From NCBI RefSeq assembly GCF_023516455.1, contig NZ_JAMGBA010000002.1:1-64000 (forward strand): a DNA stretch of 64,000 bases, given 5' to 3'. Below the pieces are notes generated by a model that searched no databases, was not told the DNA's origin, and saw only the letters and a program-made list of their open reading frames with translations. Positions 11,103 to 32,449 of this stretch are shown here, in pieces (position 1 is the stretch's first letter; each line of letters starts with the position of its first letter). This DNA comes from Sphingomonas caseinilytica (lineage in GTDB: Bacteria > Pseudomonadota > Alphaproteobacteria > Sphingomonadales > Sphingomonadaceae). A program made the translations under genes and the position numbers.

Positions 11103-12152
11103 CTACTCGGATTCCAGCAACTCCTTGAGCTCGCTCAGCTCCCATTCGTCATTGCGGCTAAATGGGAGAATCCGGCGCAATGCGGCAAAGCCGGTGCGAC
11201 CGATTTCCTGCTGCAGTGCCTCCAACCGCGCGAAGCCCGTCCGGAGTCGCTCCGATTCACCTTCCTCAAGCTTGCGGTCGCGGTCGAGCAGCTCCTCTTC
11301 GGCGGTCAGGACCAGCTCGGTTTTCAGCATGCAATATTCGCGGATGCGCTCGGACTCGGCCTTGGTCGCCCGGCCCGCGAGCGCGGCGATCCGCTGCCCG
11401 CTGGCATCGGCGGGAAAGCCGCCCTTGCGCCATTCTTCCAGCCAAAGGCGATGGCCTTCACTCTCCTCGACGAGCCATAGTTGCGCCTCCGTCTCGCCGA
11501 AGCGGAGGAGGCCGATGATCGCGATCGGTGCCAGGACCAAGGTCGCCAGCATTACCAGGCCGGGCCGATCCGGGAACTGGTTGAAGATGATGTGGATGAA
11601 CCCCGCCGCGAGATAGCCGGGCACGAACCAGAGCAGGTTGAAGGCCAGACCGGTCCCCTGTTCCCGCAACCTGCGCTCGCCGAGCTCATGAGCAACCGCG
11701 GCGAGGATTGCCGTCGTGGTGCCATGCATGACCGCGGTGCCCAGCCCACGAACTACCCACACCGGCATCGTCAGGTCTGGATAGCGCATCAGGTAAAAGC
11801 CGTTCTCTACAACGGAGAATCCGGCGCCGATCGCAAAACCGAAGATAATCGCATCGATCTTGTAGCCGATCCGGTTGGCGGCGATCAGGATCATCAGCGG
11901 GATGGCCTTCAACGCCTCCTCGATCCACGGGGCGACCATGCGGCTGTAGAAGCTGTAGCCCATCGGCAGCGTGTCGAGCATCTGGCCGCTGATCGGCCAG
12001 GCGACCAGCGCCATGAAGCCGCCCATGATCAGCGGTCCGACCAGCTCGCGCGGCGCCATCAGCTTGAAGACGTCGAGCCAGGCGAACAGCACGACCATCA
12101 CCAGCACCGGAACCAGCGCGACCGACCAGTTGAGGACTTCGATCAGGTTCAT
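11103..12152 (-). CDS. PrsW-like intramembrane metalloprotease
   Basis: The 349-residue protein has about eight hydrophobic segments in residues 10-240 followed by a charged, coiled-coil-like cytoplasmic tail. The PrsW/CPBP signature is present: APWIEEALKAIPLMIL (Glu78, Glu79, Lys82), FGFAIGAGFSVVENGFYL with a second glutamate near 128, and HGTTTAILAA. PrsW proteases perform site-1 or intramembrane cleavage, for example of anti-sigma factors. The gene starts 10 bases after the stop of the HExxH/barrel gene and is the last gene of that operon. The substrate is unknown; the two upstream genes are natural candidates. Confidence 0.88.
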   Translation of the reverse strand: MNLIEVLNWSVALVPVLVMVVLFAWLDVFKLMAPRELVGPLIMGGFMALVAWPISGQMLDTLPMGYSFYSRMVAPWIEEALKAIPLMILIAANRIGYKIDAIIFGFAIGAGFSVVENGFYLMRYPDLTMPVWVVRGLGTAVMHGTTTAILAAVAHELGERRLREQGTGLAFNLLWFVPGYLAAGFIHIIFNQFPDRPGLVMLATLVLAPIAIIGLLRFGETEAQLWLVEESEGHRLWLEEWRKGGFPADASGQRIAALAGRATKAESERIREYCMLKTELVLTAEEELLDRDRKLEEGESERLRTGFARLEALQQEIGRTGFAALRRILPFSRNDEWELSELKELLESE

Positions 12153-12162
12153 CTGAGACCCC

Positions 12163-15100
12163 TCACAGGATCTTCAGCGATGCCATAAATTCGGTTCGCC
12201 CGTCGATATCCTTGTCGCCGAACCCCTGTGCGATGCCCAGCGAGAGAACCATTGGAAGCCGCATCACGACGGTGAACCCAAGGTCCACCTGCGCACCCAA
12301 GGTGAACAGCCGATATTTGGTGTCCTCAGGCGAATCCAGCAGCATGGCGCCGCCGAACAGGGCCGGCCGCGCATAGCTCAGGAAGAAGGCAGCCGTTCCG
12401 ACCTCTTCGAACCGCACCGGCGGCAGGTTCACCTCACCGGTCACCTTGCCGAACTTTCGCGCGGCGATCTGGTCGATTTCGAAGCCCGGAAATGCCTCGA
12501 GCTCGCGGTACCGTTTCTCCGGCCGGTTATCGACATAGTTGTTGCGGAAGCTGCCGAAGTAGAGCGCGCCGAGCGGGCTGTCGCTGTCGCCGCCGACGAT
12601 GCCGGCCTGCGCATAGCCCCAGACGGAGCTATTGGGCCACGGCAGCGGCACGCCATAATCGATGCCGCCCCATAGCCTCGGAAATTCCTTCCCCTCGGCA
12701 TGGTCGATGCCGGTGACCGCGCGCCAGGCGATCCCCTTTTCATGGTCGACCCCGCCGAGCGCACTGGTCGAATTGGTATATTTGATGCCCAGTTCGCCGG
12801 AATAAATGTCCTTGGGGCTGGGTACGTTCTGGGCCGACGGCAGCTGCTCCAGCCCGAAATAGCCGGCGACGCTGCCGAAGATGTCGAGCTGCCGCGGCGG
12901 ATCGTAGATCTTGGTCTTGTTGTAGCCAATGATGATCGCATCGCCCTTGCGGCTCCGCAGCACCGGACCCGCCAGATCATAAATGTCGGCGTCGTTGTGC
13001 CAGTAGCGGAGGTTCCAGTTCAGCGTCTTATATTCGATGTCCGCGTGCAGCCCCTCGCCGTCGCCGAAGTCGCCCCATGGCGAGACGCTGAACGCCGCGC
13101 TCAGCTGATGGAACTGCATCGGATCTTCGAAGTGGAAGAAATAGCCGGCGGTTAGCTTCTGCTTGTAACCCTCGATGATCGGATAGGCGGCGGCCAGCTT
13201 CATCCGGTCGGTGGCGTGATACATGCCGCGCGCCTTGACCAGCGGGTCGAGATCGACCTTCGCAGGAGACCCCACGCCCCATTCCTTCAGCTCCGGATGG
13301 GTCTTGATCACCTTGGTGCCGAGGAACTCGATCGTTCCGAGGTCATCCCGCTTTTCCGCGCGGATCAGCGAGGGGTTCAATCCTTCGCCAGTATATTCAT
13401 AGACCAATAGCTGACCGTCAGGCCGCAACATCGGCCGGAAGAAACCGGTCGAGGCGTTGGACAGCACGTCATATTTCTGGGTGTCGAGATCGAACCGGAA
13501 GATGTTCGACACACCGGTGTAGTAGCTGGTGCCGTACATCGACTTGCCGTCAGGCGCGAAGGTGAAACCCTCCGGCGTCGAAGAGGCGAGGTCGAGCCGC
13601 GCCACCTCGTTGGGCGTGCCCGATGCCTCGAAATCCTCGGTCTTCCAGACCCGCACGGATTGGGTGCCGTTGATCTCGCCATAGCTTGCGGAGATCAGCG
13701 ACCCGTCCGGCGAGATATCGAGGTCGAACGGCGTGATCCCATAGTCGAAGGTGTGGACCTGGTTGAAACCGGCATAGGGCGCCGGAATGCGGACCAGGGT
13801 CGCATAGCCGTTCTGGTGCCTTATGCCCCAGATCGACTTGTCCCTGGGATTGAGGACCAGGTCGCCGATGCGCGCGTCGCGCAGCAGCATGCGTTTCTTG
13901 CCGGTGTCGACATCGACTTCCATGACATCCCGGAACGCCCGGTTGTCGTCGGTATAATAGGCCTTGCGGCTGTCCGGATCGAAGGCGACGCTCGTCACGA
14001 AATAGAGCATCATGCCTTTCAAATCGGACAGACGCCGAAGCTTGCCGGTCGCGAGGTCCATCGTCCCGATGAAACCGATTTGCCCGGGGAAGCGGAATGC
14101 AGCGACCAGGCTGTTGGTACGCTCGTCGACATAGCCCCGCGACATGGAGCCGAGGCCCTTGGGGCTGAGATGCTGCACGTCGGTCAACGGATAGGCGGAT
14201 AGCTTGGCGAGATTCTCCTGCTGGAACACCCGCTCGAACGCGTGCCACTCGCTCCACACCGCATCGAGCGATTTGCCGAAGGTGCGCTTGAACTGGGAGG
14301 CGTAGAAGGCCGCGCTGTCGTCGTCGCGGCGCAGCCACTGCATCACCTTTTCGGGTCCGTAGGTCAGCGCAAGGTATGAGAAGAAGCGGGTGCCGTAGAG
14401 ATAATCGTTGGCGCCGATCTGGAAATCGACCGCGATGCCTTCGCTCTCCAGCCCGAGCGGCGAATAGAGCTTGTCGTTGTCGCGGACCTTGGCCCGGAAC
14501 ACCATCTCGTCATAGCCGCCCTGCGCACGGCCTAGCCCACCGGCCATCCATGTTTCGAAGAAGACGGCCGACCCTTCGGCGTACCAGCGCGGGATATTGT
14601 TTCGGGGCGTCGTCAGATAATTGTAAAGGATCGATTCCGGATGCTCCTGGATGGGCATCGGCTTGCCGGCCAGCCATTTGCGCCAGAAGGCGTCGCGCTT
14701 GTTCCACGCATCGAGCGTCGCGACGTGCGCAAGCTCATGGTTGATCAGCGTGTAGAAGCGCTCGCCCGGCGTGAAGGTCTCCATCCGTTGCGACACCGGC
14801 GCGACGTCGAGCAGCACGCCATTGTTGGGCGACGCCCGAGCGCCGGCGTTACCGAAATCGCCGAAATCCTTGAGCAGGACCGTGGTGCGGTCCCAGGGCT
14901 CCCAGTGGAAGCGATCCTTGTGCCACTCGATCGCATTCTCGAACGCCCTTGCGACATAGGGCGTGAGATAAGTCTGGATCGGGTCGAAATAGAGCAGGAG
15001 CTGGTTGTCGGTTTCGATCGTCGACAAGGGAATGCCGCCGGCATTGGGCGGCGAATGCTTGAGCTCGCCAGTCTCGGGCTCTTCCGTCGGCGGCGAAACG

Positions 15101-15288
15101 GGTGGGCCCACCGGCTCCGTTTCCGGAGCCGGCGCGACTGGCCCATCCTGAATTACCGTCGTGTCGGGAGGTGGGGGCAAAGGTTCCTGCTGAACCTGAG
15201 CCATTGCCCCGCTCGCGACGCTGCCAAGGCAGATCGCAGTCAACTGCCTTGCCCAGCGCCGCTTGCGGCGCGCCTTTGCCCCGATCAT
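12163..15288 (-). CDS. secreted HExxH metallopeptidase with TolB-like propeller and C-terminal outer-membrane barrel
   Basis: This product of about 1040 residues begins with a signal peptide (LTAICLGSVASGAMA) and a Pro-rich linker. A gluzincin-type zinc site is visible: HELAH at about residues 185-189 and WYAEGSA with a candidate third ligand Glu near 239, as in the peptidase-MA group. Residues about 370-660 show repeated propeller-like strands (PDSRKAYYTDDNR, SPDGSLISASYGE, APDGKSMYGTSYY). The last 350 residues alternate polar and aromatic positions (ADIEYKTLNWNLRYWHN, DYGVPLPWPNSSVWGYAQAG) and end in MASLKIL, as expected for a barrel strand. Start ATG 15288 follows AAAGGGGGG. It is 31-34 bases downstream of the decapeptide-repeat gene. 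The domain combination is seen in the sequence; the biological substrate is unknown. Confidence 0.75.
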   Translation of the reverse strand: MIGAKARRKRRWARQLTAICLGSVASGAMAQVQQEPLPPPPDTTVIQDGPVAPAPETEPVGPPVSPPTEEPETGELKHSPPNAGGIPLSTIETDNQLLLYFDPIQTYLTPYVARAFENAIEWHKDRFHWEPWDRTTVLLKDFGDFGNAGARASPNNGVLLDVAPVSQRMETFTPGERFYTLINHELAHVATLDAWNKRDAFWRKWLAGKPMPIQEHPESILYNYLTTPRNNIPRWYAEGSAVFFETWMAGGLGRAQGGYDEMVFRAKVRDNDKLYSPLGLESEGIAVDFQIGANDYLYGTRFFSYLALTYGPEKVMQWLRRDDDSAAFYASQFKRTFGKSLDAVWSEWHAFERVFQQENLAKLSAYPLTDVQHLSPKGLGSMSRGYVDERTNSLVAAFRFPGQIGFIGTMDLATGKLRRLSDLKGMMLYFVTSVAFDPDSRKAYYTDDNRAFRDVMEVDVDTGKKRMLLRDARIGDLVLNPRDKSIWGIRHQNGYATLVRIPAPYAGFNQVHTFDYGITPFDLDISPDGSLISASYGEINGTQSVRVWKTEDFEASGTPNEVARLDLASSTPEGFTFAPDGKSMYGTSYYTGVSNIFRFDLDTQKYDVLSNASTGFFRPMLRPDGQLLVYEYTGEGLNPSLIRAEKRDDLGTIEFLGTKVIKTHPELKEWGVGSPAKVDLDPLVKARGMYHATDRMKLAAAYPIIEGYKQKLTAGYFFHFEDPMQFHQLSAAFSVSPWGDFGDGEGLHADIEYKTLNWNLRYWHNDADIYDLAGPVLRSRKGDAIIIGYNKTKIYDPPRQLDIFGSVAGYFGLEQLPSAQNVPSPKDIYSGELGIKYTNSTSALGGVDHEKGIAWRAVTGIDHAEGKEFPRLWGGIDYGVPLPWPNSSVWGYAQAGIVGGDSDSPLGALYFGSFRNNYVDNRPEKRYRELEAFPGFEIDQIAARKFGKVTGEVNLPPVRFEEVGTAAFFLSYARPALFGGAMLLDSPEDTKYRLFTLGAQVDLGFTVVMRLPMVLSLGIAQGFGDKDIDGRTEFMASLKIL

Positions 15289-15322
15289 CACCCCCCTTTC
15301 GGGCCGCTAGGGCCCGGCACCC

Positions 15323-16906
15323 CTATTGGTTCGATAGGCTTGCTGCGAACCTGGCGTCCCCCATCGCTGCCGCAAACGACGGATTGGCGGCCAGTGCATG
15401 GAAGGCGCTCATGCTCTTCAGTGCGTTGAACGCGTTGGCATTGGCGGACAGTGCCTGAAGCGCCTGCGCATTGTTGGCGATCGCCGCCCAAGCTGCCGGT
15501 TGCGCCGACATCGCCGCAACGGCCGCCGGATTGGCCGACATCGCCTGCATCGCGCGGGCGTTGAACTGGCCCCTGGCCGACAGGCTTGCCGCAGCCGACG
15601 CAGCATTGAACGCCTGGGCCGCGTTGACCGCCGAGGCCAACGCATTGGCATTCGCCGACATCGCCTTCCACGCCGCCGCATTGGCCGACATGGCATTCAA
15701 TGCATTGACGTTTGCCGCAGCGTTGAAGGCCTTGGCATTGGCCGCGAGCGCGCTGAACGCATCGGCGTTCTTGGCAATCGCGCTGAATGCGCTTGCGTCA
15801 CGCGACAGCGCCGACATCGCGCTGGCATCACGCGACAATGCCTCGAACGCGCTGGCGTCGCGGGACATCGCAGCCATGGCCGACGGATTGCGCGCGGCCG
15901 CCGAGAACGCACTCGGGTTCTTGGCGAAACCGGCGAAGGCCGCCGGGTTGCGCGCAATCGCCGCGAAGGCCTGCGGATGCCGTCCCAAAGCCGCAAAGGC
16001 GCTCGGATTAGACGAGATCGCCTCCAGCACTTTCGGCTGCAGGGACATCGCATTGAATGCGCTGGCATGCTGCGACATTGCCGCCGCAACCTGCCCATTC
16101 ATGGCATTGGCCTGTCCAAGGTTTGCCGAAAAGGCGCTGGCGGCCTTTGCCGACAGCGACAATGCGTCCGCATTCTTGGCCAGGCCGCTGAACGCGTCGG
16201 CGTTCTTGGCGATCGCATCGAATGCACTGGCTTCGCGGGTGATTGCCGACATGGCGCTGGCATCACGCGACAACGCCTCGAATGCGCTGGCGTCGCGAGA
16301 CATCGCAGCCATGGCCGACGGATTGCGTGCCGCAGCCGAGAACGCACTCGGGTTCTTGGCGAAACCGGCGAAGGCCGCCGGATTACGCGCAATCGCCGCG
16401 AACGCCTGCGGATGCCGTCCGAACGCCGCGAAGGCGGCCGGATTATTGGACATCGCCGCAAAGGCCTGGGCCTGGCCGGCGTTGGCGCTAGCCGCCGCCG
16501 CCGAAACCGCCTGCGCCGCATTCACGGTTGCCATGAAGGCTGCAGGATCCTTGGCCAGACCGGTAAAGGCATTCGGATTGGCCGCAATCGCCGACATCGC
16601 CTGCGGATTTGCGGCAAGCGCCGCAAAGCCCGGGTGGCTGGCCAAGGTCCGGAAATTCGGATTCTTGGTCATCACCTCGAACGCATCCGTCTGCATCAGC
16701 TTCGGAATGGACGTATCCCCGAGTGTTACGTCACCCTCGCCGACTTGAGACGATACGTAGCGGTCTGCCGGGGCGATTGTGCCCTCGGTCGGACCCAGCG
16801 GCGGATAGATCCGGCCGAGCCCATACGCTGCTACTGCGACGGCGATAATCGCCGCGCCGGTTGCCATATATTTTCGATTGGATTGGTTTGATTCGATCGT
16901 AGTCAC
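15323..16906 (-). CDS. membrane-anchored alanine-rich decapeptide-repeat protein
   Basis: I do not recognise a characterised function. The 527-residue protein has a short polar N-terminus, one membrane segment (about residues 15-31, ATGAAIIAVAVAAYGLG) and then an almost uninterrupted series of 10-residue repeats of the form [N/D]-[P/A]-x-A-[F/M]-x-A-[I/L/M]-[A/S]-[R/K/N] from about residue 80 to the end (for example NPAAFAGFAK, NPSAFSAAAR, DASAFEALSR, NADAFSGLAK). More than 35 repeats can be counted; there is no cysteine in the repeats. With an uncleaved anchor the repeats would lie in the periplasm. NP-x-F-x-x-L spacing is reminiscent of STI1-like chaperone motifs, but that is only a resemblance. 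The GTG start follows GAGGGGGTGCGAC. It is the first gene of the operon with the HExxH/barrel protein and the PrsW-like protease. Confidence 0.8.
   Translation of the reverse strand: MTTIESNQSNRKYMATGAAIIAVAVAAYGLGRIYPPLGPTEGTIAPADRYVSSQVGEGDVTLGDTSIPKLMQTDAFEVMTKNPNFRTLASHPGFAALAANPQAMSAIAANPNAFTGLAKDPAAFMATVNAAQAVSAAAASANAGQAQAFAAMSNNPAAFAAFGRHPQAFAAIARNPAAFAGFAKNPSAFSAAARNPSAMAAMSRDASAFEALSRDASAMSAITREASAFDAIAKNADAFSGLAKNADALSLSAKAASAFSANLGQANAMNGQVAAAMSQHASAFNAMSLQPKVLEAISSNPSAFAALGRHPQAFAAIARNPAAFAGFAKNPSAFSAAARNPSAMAAMSRDASAFEALSRDASAMSALSRDASAFSAIAKNADAFSALAANAKAFNAAANVNALNAMSANAAAWKAMSANANALASAVNAAQAFNAASAAASLSARGQFNARAMQAMSANPAAVAAMSAQPAAWAAIANNAQALQALSANANAFNALKSMSAFHALAANPSFAAAMGDARFAASLSNQ
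15812..15985 (-). repeat. Internal 174-bp duplication in the decapeptide-repeat gene, copy B
   Basis: This block encodes 58 residues nearly identical to those of 16247-16420, 435 bases away (HPQAFAAIARNPAAFAGFAK through DASAFEALSRDASA). DNA identity is also high and differences are mainly silent. A recent segmental duplication or gene conversion inside the array is the likely origin. Confidence 0.8.
16247..16420 (-). repeat. Internal 174-bp duplication in the decapeptide-repeat gene, copy A
   Basis: This is the N-terminal-proximal partner of the block at 15812-15985. The flanking decapeptides have diverged, while this stretch is nearly the same at DNA and protein level. Confidence 0.8.

Positions 16907-29338: not shown

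Positions 29339-29339
<1 letters not shown>
28638..29339 (+). CDS. tolQ: Tol-Pal system proton channel subunit TolQ
   Basis: The 233-residue protein has three membrane segments: one near residues 25-45 ([16 protein letters not shown]) and two after the loop in [21 protein letters not shown] and [26 protein letters not shown]. These carry the conserved threonine and proline residues of the ExbB/TolQ/MotA family. With TolR it uses the proton gradient to power TolA. It overlaps ybgC and tolR by one base each. Confidence 0.95.
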
Positions 29340-29775
<436 letters not shown>

Positions 29776-29779
<4 letters not shown>

Positions 29780-30582
29780 GGATGGACCGCGCCGAGAAGG
29801 TCGGGACGGGAGCAGCCCTGCTGTTCCACGTCGCGCTGATCGGTGCGATGTCGATGAGCCTGGCGCATATAAACTCGACCCCCGAACCGCCGGCAATGGA
29901 GGTCGAACTCGTCGAGGAGGTCGGCCTCACCGCCGCCGCCCCGCAGCAGGTCGTCGTCCCGCCACCACCGAGCCAGGCGCCCGAGATGGGCGAGGCCGAG
30001 CCGGTCGAAGCAGTGGCGCCGCCTCCCCCAACGCCACGACCGACACCCGCACCGGTAGTGAAGCCGGTTCCGCCGAGGGCCGCGCCGCCAAAGCCATCAC
30101 CTGTGGTGAAGCCCGCGCCGCCGAGGACCGCACCTCCCAAGCCCACGCCCCGCGTCTCACGGATCGGCGATGATTTCCTGAAAGGGATTTCCGACGACAA
30201 GCTCGCCCCGCGTGCTGGCCCCGCGCCCAAGCCCGCCGCCGCGACCGTCAGCGCCTCGGCGATGGCCGGAATCGTCCAGGCGATCCGCCGCCAGGTCCAG
30301 CCCTGCGCCGACCGGCAGGTGAATCCGGGCGAAGGTGCAAGCCGGATCAAGGTGCGGATGCGCCTGCAACTCACCCGAAGCGGCCGCCTCCGCGCTCCGC
30401 CGCAGGTTATCGGCACTTCCGGGGTCGATGACGAAAACGCTCGCTATGAGGAGCGGGTCAAGGATCTCGCCGTCGCCACGTTCGTCGGTTGCGCACCGCT
30501 CGTCGGATTGCCCCCCGAGCTCTACGAGACCGAGAGTGGTCGGGGCTGGTCCGATTTCATCATGAACTACAATTTGCCGTGA
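29776..30582 (+). CDS. tolA: Tol-Pal system protein TolA
   Basis: The 268-residue protein has one N-terminal membrane helix (GAALLFHVALIGAMSMSLAHI), a Pro/Lys-rich linker at about residues 60-135 with repeated KP-x-P-P-x-A-P-P-K units, and a C-terminal domain (IRRQVQPCAD through GWSDFIMNY) of the TonB/TolA type. Two cysteines (CAD and GCAP) may form a disulfide. It spans the periplasm between TolQR and TolB/Pal. It overlaps tolR by 4 bases. Confidence 0.9.
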
Positions 30583-30593
30583 GGAGTCTTCCG

Positions 30594-31901
30594 TTGAAGC
30601 CGATCATCGCCGCCCTTCTTGCCCTGCCGATGGCGAGTGCCGCCGTGGCCCAGGACTCCGGACCGCTCGAAGTCGACGTCGTCGGCGGCATCCAGGCGCC
30701 GATGGCCATCGCCGTCCCGGCAATGCCGAGCGCCAATGGCGATGCCGCGATGGGCAGGCAGATTGCTGAGATCATCTCGTCCGACCTGCGCACGACCGGC
30801 CTGTTCACGCCGCTCGGGCCGGGCGGAATTGCCGGCTACAGCTATGCCGAAGCGTCCAACCCGGTTTACGCCACCTGGCGAAGCGCCGGCGCCGCAGCGC
30901 TGGTCGCCGGCTATGTGGAAGGAGCCGGAACGGGCCGTTTGACGCTCGCATGCTACCTGTACGACGTCACAGCGGGTCGGGAGCTTGTGCGCCAGGGTTT
31001 TGCGGTCAATGCCAACAATTGGCGCAGCGCCGCACACAAATGCGCCGACCTCGTCTATTCGCGTCTGTCGGGCGAACAGCCCTTCCTCGATACCAAGGTT
31101 GTTTATGTCTCCGAGACGGGGCCGAAAAACGCCCGCGTAAAGCGCATCGCGATCATGGATTCCGACGGCTCCAACCATCGCTACCTGACCGAAGGCAAGG
31201 CGACCGTGCTGACCCCGCGGTTCAGCCCGCGCGGCGACAAGCTTGTCTACATGAGCTACCAGGGCCGGCGTCCGCGCGTCTATGTGATGGACGTCGCGAC
31301 CGGCACGGAACGGCTGCTGGTTCCGGGCACCGCCTTCACCTTCGCACCGCGCTTCTCGCCGGACGGCAGCCAGATCGTCTTTTCGATGGCCGCTGGCGGC
31401 AACACCGACATTTATGTCGTTGGCGCCAACGGCGGTACACCGCGCCGGCTGACGGCGACGCCGGGCGCGGACACGTCGCCAAGCTTTTCGCCGGACGGCA
31501 ACCGCATCGTGTTCGAAAGCGACCGGTCGGGCAGCCAGCAGCTCTACGTCATGAACTATGACGGATCGAACCAGCGCCGGATCAGCTTCGGCGGCGGCAA
31601 CTATGCCTCGCCGGCCTGGAGCCCGCGCGGCGACCTGATCGCCTTCACGCGAATCGGTGGCGGCGCCTTCCGAATCGGCGTGATGAGCCCGAGTGGCGGC
31701 GGGGAGCGTACGCTGACCAATGCCTGGCAGGACGAGGGTCCCAGCTGGGCGCCCAATGGCCAGTTCGTCATGTTCCATCGCACCACGCAGGGATCGGGCA
31801 ACGCCGCCCTCTATGCGGTCAACATCAATGGCGGCCAGCCAAGGCGCATGCCGACTCCGGTCGGCGGATCGGACCCCAGCTGGTCGCCCCTCAACAATTA
31901 A
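30594..31901 (+). CDS. tolB: Tol-Pal system periplasmic protein TolB
   Basis: The 435-residue protein has a signal peptide (ALLALPMASAAVAQ), an N-terminal alpha/beta domain (QIAEIISSDLRTTGLF) and a six-bladed propeller with repeated FSPRGDKLVYMS, FSPDGSQIVFSM and FSPDGNRIVFES strands. It links TolA to Pal. TTG 30594 is preferred: GAGGAG sits 7 bases upstream. A GTG at 30579 overlapping the tolA stop is the alternative. Confidence 0.95.
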   Translation: MKPIIAALLALPMASAAVAQDSGPLEVDVVGGIQAPMAIAVPAMPSANGDAAMGRQIAEIISSDLRTTGLFTPLGPGGIAGYSYAEASNPVYATWRSAGAAALVAGYVEGAGTGRLTLACYLYDVTAGRELVRQGFAVNANNWRSAAHKCADLVYSRLSGEQPFLDTKVVYVSETGPKNARVKRIAIMDSDGSNHRYLTEGKATVLTPRFSPRGDKLVYMSYQGRRPRVYVMDVATGTERLLVPGTAFTFAPRFSPDGSQIVFSMAAGGNTDIYVVGANGGTPRRLTATPGADTSPSFSPDGNRIVFESDRSGSQQLYVMNYDGSNQRRISFGGGNYASPAWSPRGDLIAFTRIGGGAFRIGVMSPSGGGERTLTNAWQDEGPSWAPNGQFVMFHRTTQGSGNAALYAVNINGGQPRRMPTPVGGSDPSWSPLNN

Positions 31902-31930
31902 AACGAACAGGGAATTTCAAGGAGTAAGGA

Positions 31931-32449
31931 ATGAACAAGTCTGTCCTCATCGGCATGACCGCCCTGGCGCTGGCGCTCGGCGCATGCGGCAAGAAGACGC
32001 CTCCCGCGGACATTCCGCCGGCAGTCGACCAGTCGGCCAACCCGCCGGGCACCGCGACCGACGACAGCGTCGACCTGATCGAACTTCCGGCGATGCAGGC
32101 CGACCTCATCGCCAAGGCGGGTTCGGACACGGTCTATTTCAGCACGGACGAATCCTCGCTCGACAACCAAGCCCAGGCCACACTGGCGGCACAGGCGCGT
32201 TGGATGCTCGCAAATCCGTCTGTTCGTGGATCGATCGAAGGCCATGCCGACGAACGCGGCACGCGTGAGTATAATCTTGCACTGGGCGAGCGGCGGGCCA
32301 ATGCCGCCAAGCAATTCCTGATTGCCAATGGCGTTCCCGAAGGCCGGCTGACGACGATCAGCTGGGGCAAGGAACGCCCGGTTGCCGTTGGCTCCAACGA
32401 GGAAGCCTGGGCCCAGAACCGCCGCGCCGTGACGGTGGTCGTTAAATAA
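31931..32449 (+). CDS. pal: Peptidoglycan-associated lipoprotein Pal
   Basis: The 172-residue lipoprotein has a lipobox (LALALGAC, Cys19) and an OmpA-like peptidoglycan-binding domain: VYFSTDESSLD, then SIEGHADERGTREYNLALG and RANAAKQFLIANGV. It anchors the outer membrane to peptidoglycan. No cpoB/ybgF gene follows it here. Confidence 0.96.
   Translation: MNKSVLIGMTALALALGACGKKTPPADIPPAVDQSANPPGTATDDSVDLIELPAMQADLIAKAGSDTVYFSTDESSLDNQAQATLAAQARWMLANPSVRGSIEGHADERGTREYNLALGERRANAAKQFLIANGVPEGRLTTISWGKERPVAVGSNEEAWAQNRRAVTVVVK

Follow-up and report, generated by a model that had tools for sequence, protein, structure and literature searches.

The window analysed here (64,000 nucleotides of a Sphingomonas caseinilytica contig) contains a gene, termed gene A, that encodes a 527-aa protein composed largely of decapeptide repeats, which are predicted to form a chain of short helices behind a single N-terminal membrane segment. 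Gene A is almost always accompanied by a gene encoding an HExxH peptidase fused to a TolB-like propeller (gene B), and usually also by a gene encoding a PrsW-family intramembrane protease (gene C). We tentatively propose that gene A encodes a TolA-like periplasmic rod within a protease-gated trans-envelope module, a reading that we favour while holding it short of probable. Neither the gene A family nor the gene set appears to have been described: a search of open-licence PMC papers for a decapeptide solenoid, for PrsW together with Omp85 or TolB, and for PrsW in Sphingomonas found no description of the system. The parts are of known kinds, whereas their combination and the decapeptide rod appear to be new.

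Table 1 Features of the three-gene module (positions in the window).
Feature	Positions	Strand	Basis or remark
Gene A, 527-aa decapeptide-repeat protein	15323..16906	-	ORF; homologs of like architecture
Gene A N-terminal membrane segment (residues 13-31), positive residues on its N-side	16814..16870	-	Kyte-Doolittle; helix 9-33 in model
Gene A conserved juxtamembrane domain (residues 42-120), GTIAPADRY...LGDTSIPKLMQTDAFEVM...	16547..16783	-	Highest conservation; invariant columns
Gene A first decapeptide array (residues 145-262)	16121..16474	-	8-9-residue helices, pLDDT 91-98 over ~152-241
Gene A second decapeptide array (residues 290-399)	15710..16039	-	Pattern units; short helices, block pLDDT 71-87 in full-length model
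Duplicated block, copy A	16247..16420	-	174 bp; 100% protein and 94% DNA identity to copy B
Duplicated block, copy B	15812..15985	-	174 bp; 100% protein and 94% DNA identity to copy A
Gene B, 1042-aa HExxH peptidase with TolB-like propeller and C-terminal probable beta-barrel	12163..15291	-	31 bp after gene A
Gene B HELAH motif (residues 185-189)	14725..14739	-	Invariant H185, E186, H189
Gene B C-terminal 357 residues, probable outer-membrane beta-barrel	12166..13236	-	Weak Omp85_2 matches
Gene C, PrsW-family intramembrane metalloprotease	11103..12152	-	PF13367 E=7.7e-17; 10 bp after gene B

The gene A reading frame begins with GTG and is not interrupted. Over residues 111-527, the self-identity at a lag of 10 residues is 0.41, compared with a mean of 0.177 and a maximum of 0.229 in 1000 composition-preserving shuffles; the values at lags 4, 7, and 11 are 0.10, 0.20, and 0.11, the latter two lying below the shuffle maximum. 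The preliminary description, made from the DNA alone, had reported a repeat N-P-x-A-F-x-A-I-A-x of period 10 that fits neither heptads nor hendecads, and both points are borne out. Pattern matching identified 33 decapeptide units, from a total of about 40, and these follow the N-terminal hydrophobic segment and a stretch without repeats. The units take the form N-P/A-x-A-F/M-x-A-I/L-A-R/K; over 20 units in register, position 4 is always alanine and position 5 is phenylalanine or methionine in 19. Long open reading frames on the opposite strand (e.g. 15398-16891) are antisense to the repeat and are taken for its shadows. A scan for consensus promoters and terminators gave nothing above chance.

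Structure prediction of the repeats, which the preliminary description had proposed as a check, gave a chain of short helices. The AlphaFold2 model of the whole protein, made with 12 homologs, has a mean pLDDT of 62 and a pTM of 0.53; its short helices reach block means of ~80-87 over a large part of residues 151-390, and the rest of the model is of low confidence. A second model, limited to residues 61-262 and made with 30 homologs (the module model), reached a mean pLDDT of 80.9, with block means of 91-98 at model residues 91-180 (about 90 residues); it shows helices of 8-9 residues separated by gaps of 1-2 residues, one helix per decapeptide. We propose that NP or DA/NA would occupy the turn of each decapeptide and that A-F/M-x-x-I/L-A would form its packing face. 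In Foldseek, no PDB entry matched the full-length or the module model at E<=0.001 (best E 2.2 for the latter), the best VIA scores were Z 2.3 and Z 2.2 (rmsd 3.1, 38 residues for the module), and the best match of the module model among viral models had an E of 2.5. The lack of a match in these fold libraries does not show that the fold is new, as the preliminary description had suggested it might be in raising a possible novel solenoid.

At the sequence level, the gene A family profile matched a single PDB entry at E<=0.001, namely 7QLR (E=1.3e-12, and 3.6e-8 with the module profile, both for unscrambled profiles only), which is the tail fibre Gp22 of the Clostridioides difficile phage CDHS-1. 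The two proteins share the period-10 layout N-x-x-A-[F/M]-x-x-[I/L]-A-x, and the matching stretch of 7QLR has a lag-10 self-identity of 0.23 against a shuffle maximum of 0.187. Unlike gene A, 7QLR is a phage protein for which no connection to gene B or gene C is known, and the resemblance may as likely reflect convergence on a good short-helix repeat as shared descent. 7QLR was not among the matches that Foldseek and VIA listed for either model, which is no evidence of a different fold.

Other candidate relationships were rejected. The DP domains of STI1/HOP and the XPC-binding domain consist of short helices with NP or DP turns and belong to cytosolic or nuclear proteins acting as co-chaperones and in repair. 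Gene A resembles them in its short helices with NP turns and in weak Pfam matches, which remain below the cut-offs (STI1-HOP_DP, PF17830, 25.3 bits vs 29.1; XPC-binding domain, 23.9 bits vs 26.4). The Cons_hypoth95/RsmD methyltransferase model (PF03602) does pass its cut-off (25.1 bits vs 24) but covers only 50 of 182 profile positions, all inside the alanine-rich repeats, and the corresponding TIGR00095 scores 15.8 of 117.5 bits; we read this match as compositional.

Homologs of gene A were collected from named genomes (11 loci) and from the same family, class, and genus. The gene was found in 4 of 149 genomes of the family (one of them, G127, at only E=6e-4 and with internal stops), in 5 of 385 genomes of the class, and in 31 of 71 genomes of the genus, 30 of which are clear; the 31st (G581) matches over the first 45 positions only (E=9e-7). 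The aligned homologs retain the membrane segment and the juxtamembrane domain GTIAPAxRY...DVxLGDTSIPxLMQTDAFEVM. By Kyte-Doolittle analysis, the N-terminal segment of gene A has a 19-residue mean of 1.64 and the body a maximum of 1.15; 32 of 37 family sequences possess an N-terminal segment with a mean of at least 1.6, and none of the 37 has a hydrophobic segment in its body. Mean pairwise identity is 0.61-0.78 for blocks within residues 21-120, 0.33-0.53 for most of the body, and 0.48-0.58 for residues 461-520. The period of 10 is still visible in most of ten rows tested. Its signal is weak in L087 (0.17, shuffle maximum 0.153), in L096 (0.22, shuffle maximum 0.212), and in L017 (0.18, shuffle maximum 0.183), that of L017 lying within its maximum. 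The L017 protein also lacks the family-consensus end, and L094 carries an extra tail, both possibly due to frameshifts.

Two sets of proteins depart further from this plan. In genome G152 (L068:2722-4026), the same anchor and juxtamembrane domain are followed by a low-complexity AASQ/AASN array of period 4 that lacks the family C-terminus. Genes B and C are conserved beside it, and it seems that the sequence of the rod can be exchanged. Four further proteins (L070-L073, from G562, G552, G550, and G581) are weak second matches of the gene A N-terminal profile, with the membrane segment and linker in common, and their motifs lead us to take them for L,D-transpeptidase-like proteins. L,D-transpeptidases are periplasmic enzymes, and the sequences give the impression of a single anchor joined to various periplasmic domains.

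Genes A and B are tightly linked. Within the genus, gene B is present in 31 of the 71 genomes (34 pass the search threshold, three of them only at E about 1e-4 to 1e-3), and the sole gene B lacking a gene A, that of G582, lies at a contig edge, with its start 130 bases from the end. The two genes lie in line on one contig in 29 of 30 genomes and on two contigs in the other (G539), and within the class the same 5 genomes hold both. A PrsW gene follows gene B in 15 of the 16 loci readable that far (L010, L013, and L016 are cut too early); a Marinicaulis metagenome-assembled genome (L011) has genes A and B but no PrsW gene at the expected place, where an opposite-strand gene comes next. Neither a clear gene A nor a strong gene B occurs in 40 of the 71 congeners, and the three-gene module is accessory. 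Its location is variable, as it adjoins the pyruvate kinase gene in the window and in two other loci (L007 and L008), lies close to it in G537, and is far from it in G577. A phage or plasmid origin was considered and rejected, with no gene A match in 50,697 phage records and no gene B match in 72,556 plasmid records. A search of 398 genomes gave, apart from the window's own, 6 with B-like proteins; these come from another family of the phylum, and in the four loci read no repeat gene stands beside them. These proteins (L143-L146, family f191) are of ~940-950 aa, contain the gene B HExxH domain, and are possible older relatives of gene B.

The N-terminus of gene B, judged by eye, looks like a cleavable signal peptide. 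In the domain that follows, H185, E186, H189, and E239 are invariant in 13 of 13 sequences, i.e. an HExxH motif with a downstream glutamate ligand as in gluzincins; the assignment to a peptidase family is weak, since Peptidase_MA_2 matches 1 of the 13 members (E=0.0081). The propeller is recognized by PD40 in 10 of the 13 members and by TIGR02800 (TolB) in 9, with TolB as its best match (E about 1e-3 for PDB TolB). The C-terminal region is probably an outer-membrane beta-barrel, judging from weak matches to Omp85_2 (PF19143) in 4 of the 13 members (best E=6.8e-4), none being the window copy; hhalign gave no significant match to BamA/TamA profiles of relatives, no PDB sequence matched up to E=5, and an Omp85_2 search of 39 genomes of the family found the domain in none. 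WD40-Omp85 proteins, as outlined by Heinz and Lithgow (2014; PMC4104836), consist of a TolB-like propeller followed by an Omp85-type barrel, and gene B probably follows this general plan, with the differences that it adds an N-terminal HExxH gluzincin-type domain and that its barrel matches Omp85_2 weakly. Gene C belongs to the PrsW proteases both by Pfam (PF13367, 61.9 bits against a cut-off of 23.5) and by its motifs, EExxK, FxxxEN, H143, and HxxxN being invariant in 10 of 10 sequences. Gene C differs in its setting from PrsW proteases tied to an anti-sigma factor or a fused toxin, its partners here being a repeat protein and an envelope peptidase.

A close parallel to the module is the Tol-Pal system. 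PMC7391070 describes TolA as having three parts: a membrane helix, a helical domain rich in alanine that is believed to reach across the periplasm, and a domain at the C-terminus. Its repeat number ranges from 8 to 16 and is 13 in 66% of 234 strains, with length-dependent phenotypes and an optimum, according to PMC3477136. Judged from sequence and prediction only, gene A has the same layout, its one inner-membrane helix leading into a helical repeat rich in alanine; the module also resembles the TolA-TolB-Pal system in having a partner with a TolB-type propeller and a repeat length near an optimum. In contrast to the long Lys/Glu/Ala helix of TolA, gene A is an array of short decapeptide helices, and the module differs from Tol-Pal by the fusion of the propeller to a peptidase and a probable barrel and by the presence of PrsW. 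Gene A is not itself a TolA, since no TolA model of Pfam or NCBIfam matches it up to E=1 and tolR, tolA, tolB, and pal are found elsewhere in the window. This Tol operon occupies positions 29339-32449 on the plus strand (tolB named by TIGR02800, the other genes by position and sequence), and its tolA is proline-rich and contains a 48-bp tandem repeat at 30050-30143.

In the mechanism that we tentatively propose, the gene A protein would be held in the inner membrane by its N-terminal helix, and the juxtamembrane domain would be followed by ~40 short-helix decapeptides forming a rod that extends through the periplasm towards the outer membrane. Its partner would be the gene B protein, presumably exported and placed in the outer membrane by its probable barrel, with its gluzincin-type domain and TolB-like propeller. 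Contact between the two would generate a trans-envelope bridge, working like TolA with TolB and based on a helical repeat of controlled length, and the PrsW protease could cut gene A close to its membrane anchor in order to set, release, or recycle the bridge.

This bridging role is favoured by the linkage of genes A and B in genus and class, by the single N-terminal membrane segment with none in the body, by the L,D-transpeptidase-like proteins found behind the same segment and linker, by TolB being the best match of the gene B propeller, and by the precedent of TolA, with its membrane helix, alanine-rich helical domain, and length-dependent phenotypes. It is also favoured by the length of gene A, which is 506-537 aa in 19 of 29 congeners (median 525) despite bodies that are only ~45% identical. 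The count covers the congeners with a readable gene, one genome per species (in G539, the 30th, the gene runs into the edge of a contig); the other congeners measure 380, 400, 401, 481, and 563-586 aa, and the full range outside the main cluster is 380-617 aa. This tight clustering argues against the free expansion and contraction of repeat number supposed in the preliminary description, and comes close to the constant repeat number across strains that the same description had named as evidence against its own proposal, although it was observed between species and not between strains. Other observations disfavour the bridge: proteins of 380-617 aa would span different distances, the gene A C-terminus, expected to meet gene B, is only modestly conserved and is missing in G152, it is not evident why a tether would require two proteases, the window also carries the genome's own Tol operon, the gene B barrel is weakly supported by sequence, and the B-like proteins of the other family stand without a repeat gene in the four loci read.

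The main rival of the bridge, which we consider doubtful without dismissing it, is that gene A encodes an exported surface fibre. The protein would be made as an anchored precursor and cut near the membrane by PrsW, and gene B would export, trim, or anchor it at the outer surface; with the same degree of doubt, the conserved N-terminal domain would be a sorting signal and the body a displayed rod. The constant N-terminal domain and variable body, including the AASQ array of G152 beside conserved genes B and C, fit this reading, as do the two conserved proteases of the operon, the proposal in PMC3482391 that PrsW is a releasing or export peptidase, also for filamentous proteins, and the identity of the sole solved protein found with a related decapeptide array, a phage tail fibre. 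However, the lengths cluster tightly, unlike those of typical variable adhesins, cysteine is absent from gene A in all 37 rows scored, no surface-anchoring motif was seen in gene A by eye, and Omp85-type export by gene B is unproven. The likeness to surface or adhesive proteins drawn in the preliminary description is likewise unproven, as gene A begins with one membrane segment and stands in an operon-like arrangement with gene B and PrsW. Thus, the constant length favours a rod, whereas the constant N-terminus, the weak C-terminus, the two proteases, and the AASQ variant favour a fibre.

It is improbable that gene A is the sensor or substrate of a regulated proteolysis in which gene B senses or cuts the periplasmic part, PrsW then cuts at the membrane, and a signal is released. 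The prototype PrsW performs the site-1 cleavage of the anti-sigma factor RsiW, as stated in PMC3482391, and both genes B and C carry protease motifs, but the cytoplasmic tail of gene A (~12 residues) is too short for an anti-sigma domain and no sigma factor was noticed among the immediate neighbours translated.

The bridge, if true, would be a second and independently built answer to the problem solved by TolA, the bridging of two membranes by an alanine-rich helical rod. With still less confidence than in the bridge itself, we suggest that the gene A repeat represents an undescribed class of alpha-solenoid serving as a length-controlled periplasmic rod in an accessory envelope machine of three genes, with PrsW and the gene B protein acting on it from the two membranes, and that the rod sequence would be free to vary, up to an AASQ array, as long as the anchor, the juxtamembrane domain, and the length class are kept. 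Natural length and sequence variants are available in dozens of species and the module, being optional, should be deletable. The array of short decapeptide helices is also a simple modular scaffold of interest for protein designers.

The preliminary description had also noted the two nearly identical 174-bp blocks and ascribed them to a recent duplication and to recombination. The blocks are as described (Table 1); they lie 435 bp (145 aa) apart within a longer pair (15726-16022 and 16161-16457, 297 bp) of 85% identity. Over 80 codons, copies A and B show 18 synonymous and 5 non-synonymous differences, and the predominance of the former (18 of 23) indicates that the protein is under constraint. 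This ratio, the persistence of period 10 in distant homologs, the length clustering, the near-perfect linkage to gene B, and the high-confidence predicted fold already disfavour the idea that gene A represents the neutral expansion of a low-complexity sequence and does not function as a rod, which we consider very improbable even though its body diverges fast (block identity down to 0.33-0.53) and one homolog has an AASQ body.

As for the age of the pair, a recent origin has to be qualified in view of the 18 synonymous and 5 non-synonymous differences and of the presence of the pair in many species. In many of the 37 sequences scored, a stretch of 80 residues matches another in the same protein at 0.55-0.94, the two being 140-215 residues apart (141-145 aa for many species, 168-213 for others); in other sequences, the pair is weak or missing. 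Such similarly spaced pairs across the family led us to reject an independent recent duplication in this genome alone as the sole account. For a tree, we took 19 of the 37 sequences, namely those that match themselves over 80 residues at 0.55 or more with a spacing of 140-215. Sequences whose pair is weak or missing were excluded, six outgroup-like rows (L011, L019, L020, L021, L068, and L074) were removed by hand, and L005, which duplicates L100, and L013, which is truncated at a contig end, were dropped. Copies A and B are sisters in 14 of the 19 genomes, mean block identity is 0.73 within a genome compared to 0.50 between genomes at the same position, and the within-genome value is the higher one in 163 of 171 genome pairs, in agreement with the recombination between blocks that had been suggested. 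In one clade (L085, L086, L090, and L098), the copies cluster by block, A with A and B with B, which places the origin of the pair before these species. This grouping by position and the similar spacing in diverged species indicate an old duplication kept alike by gene conversion, and the data point to a pair homogenised by concerted evolution in most lineages, a clear case of this process within one bacterial gene. In L080, the copies are not sisters for another reason, its A copy grouping with L081.
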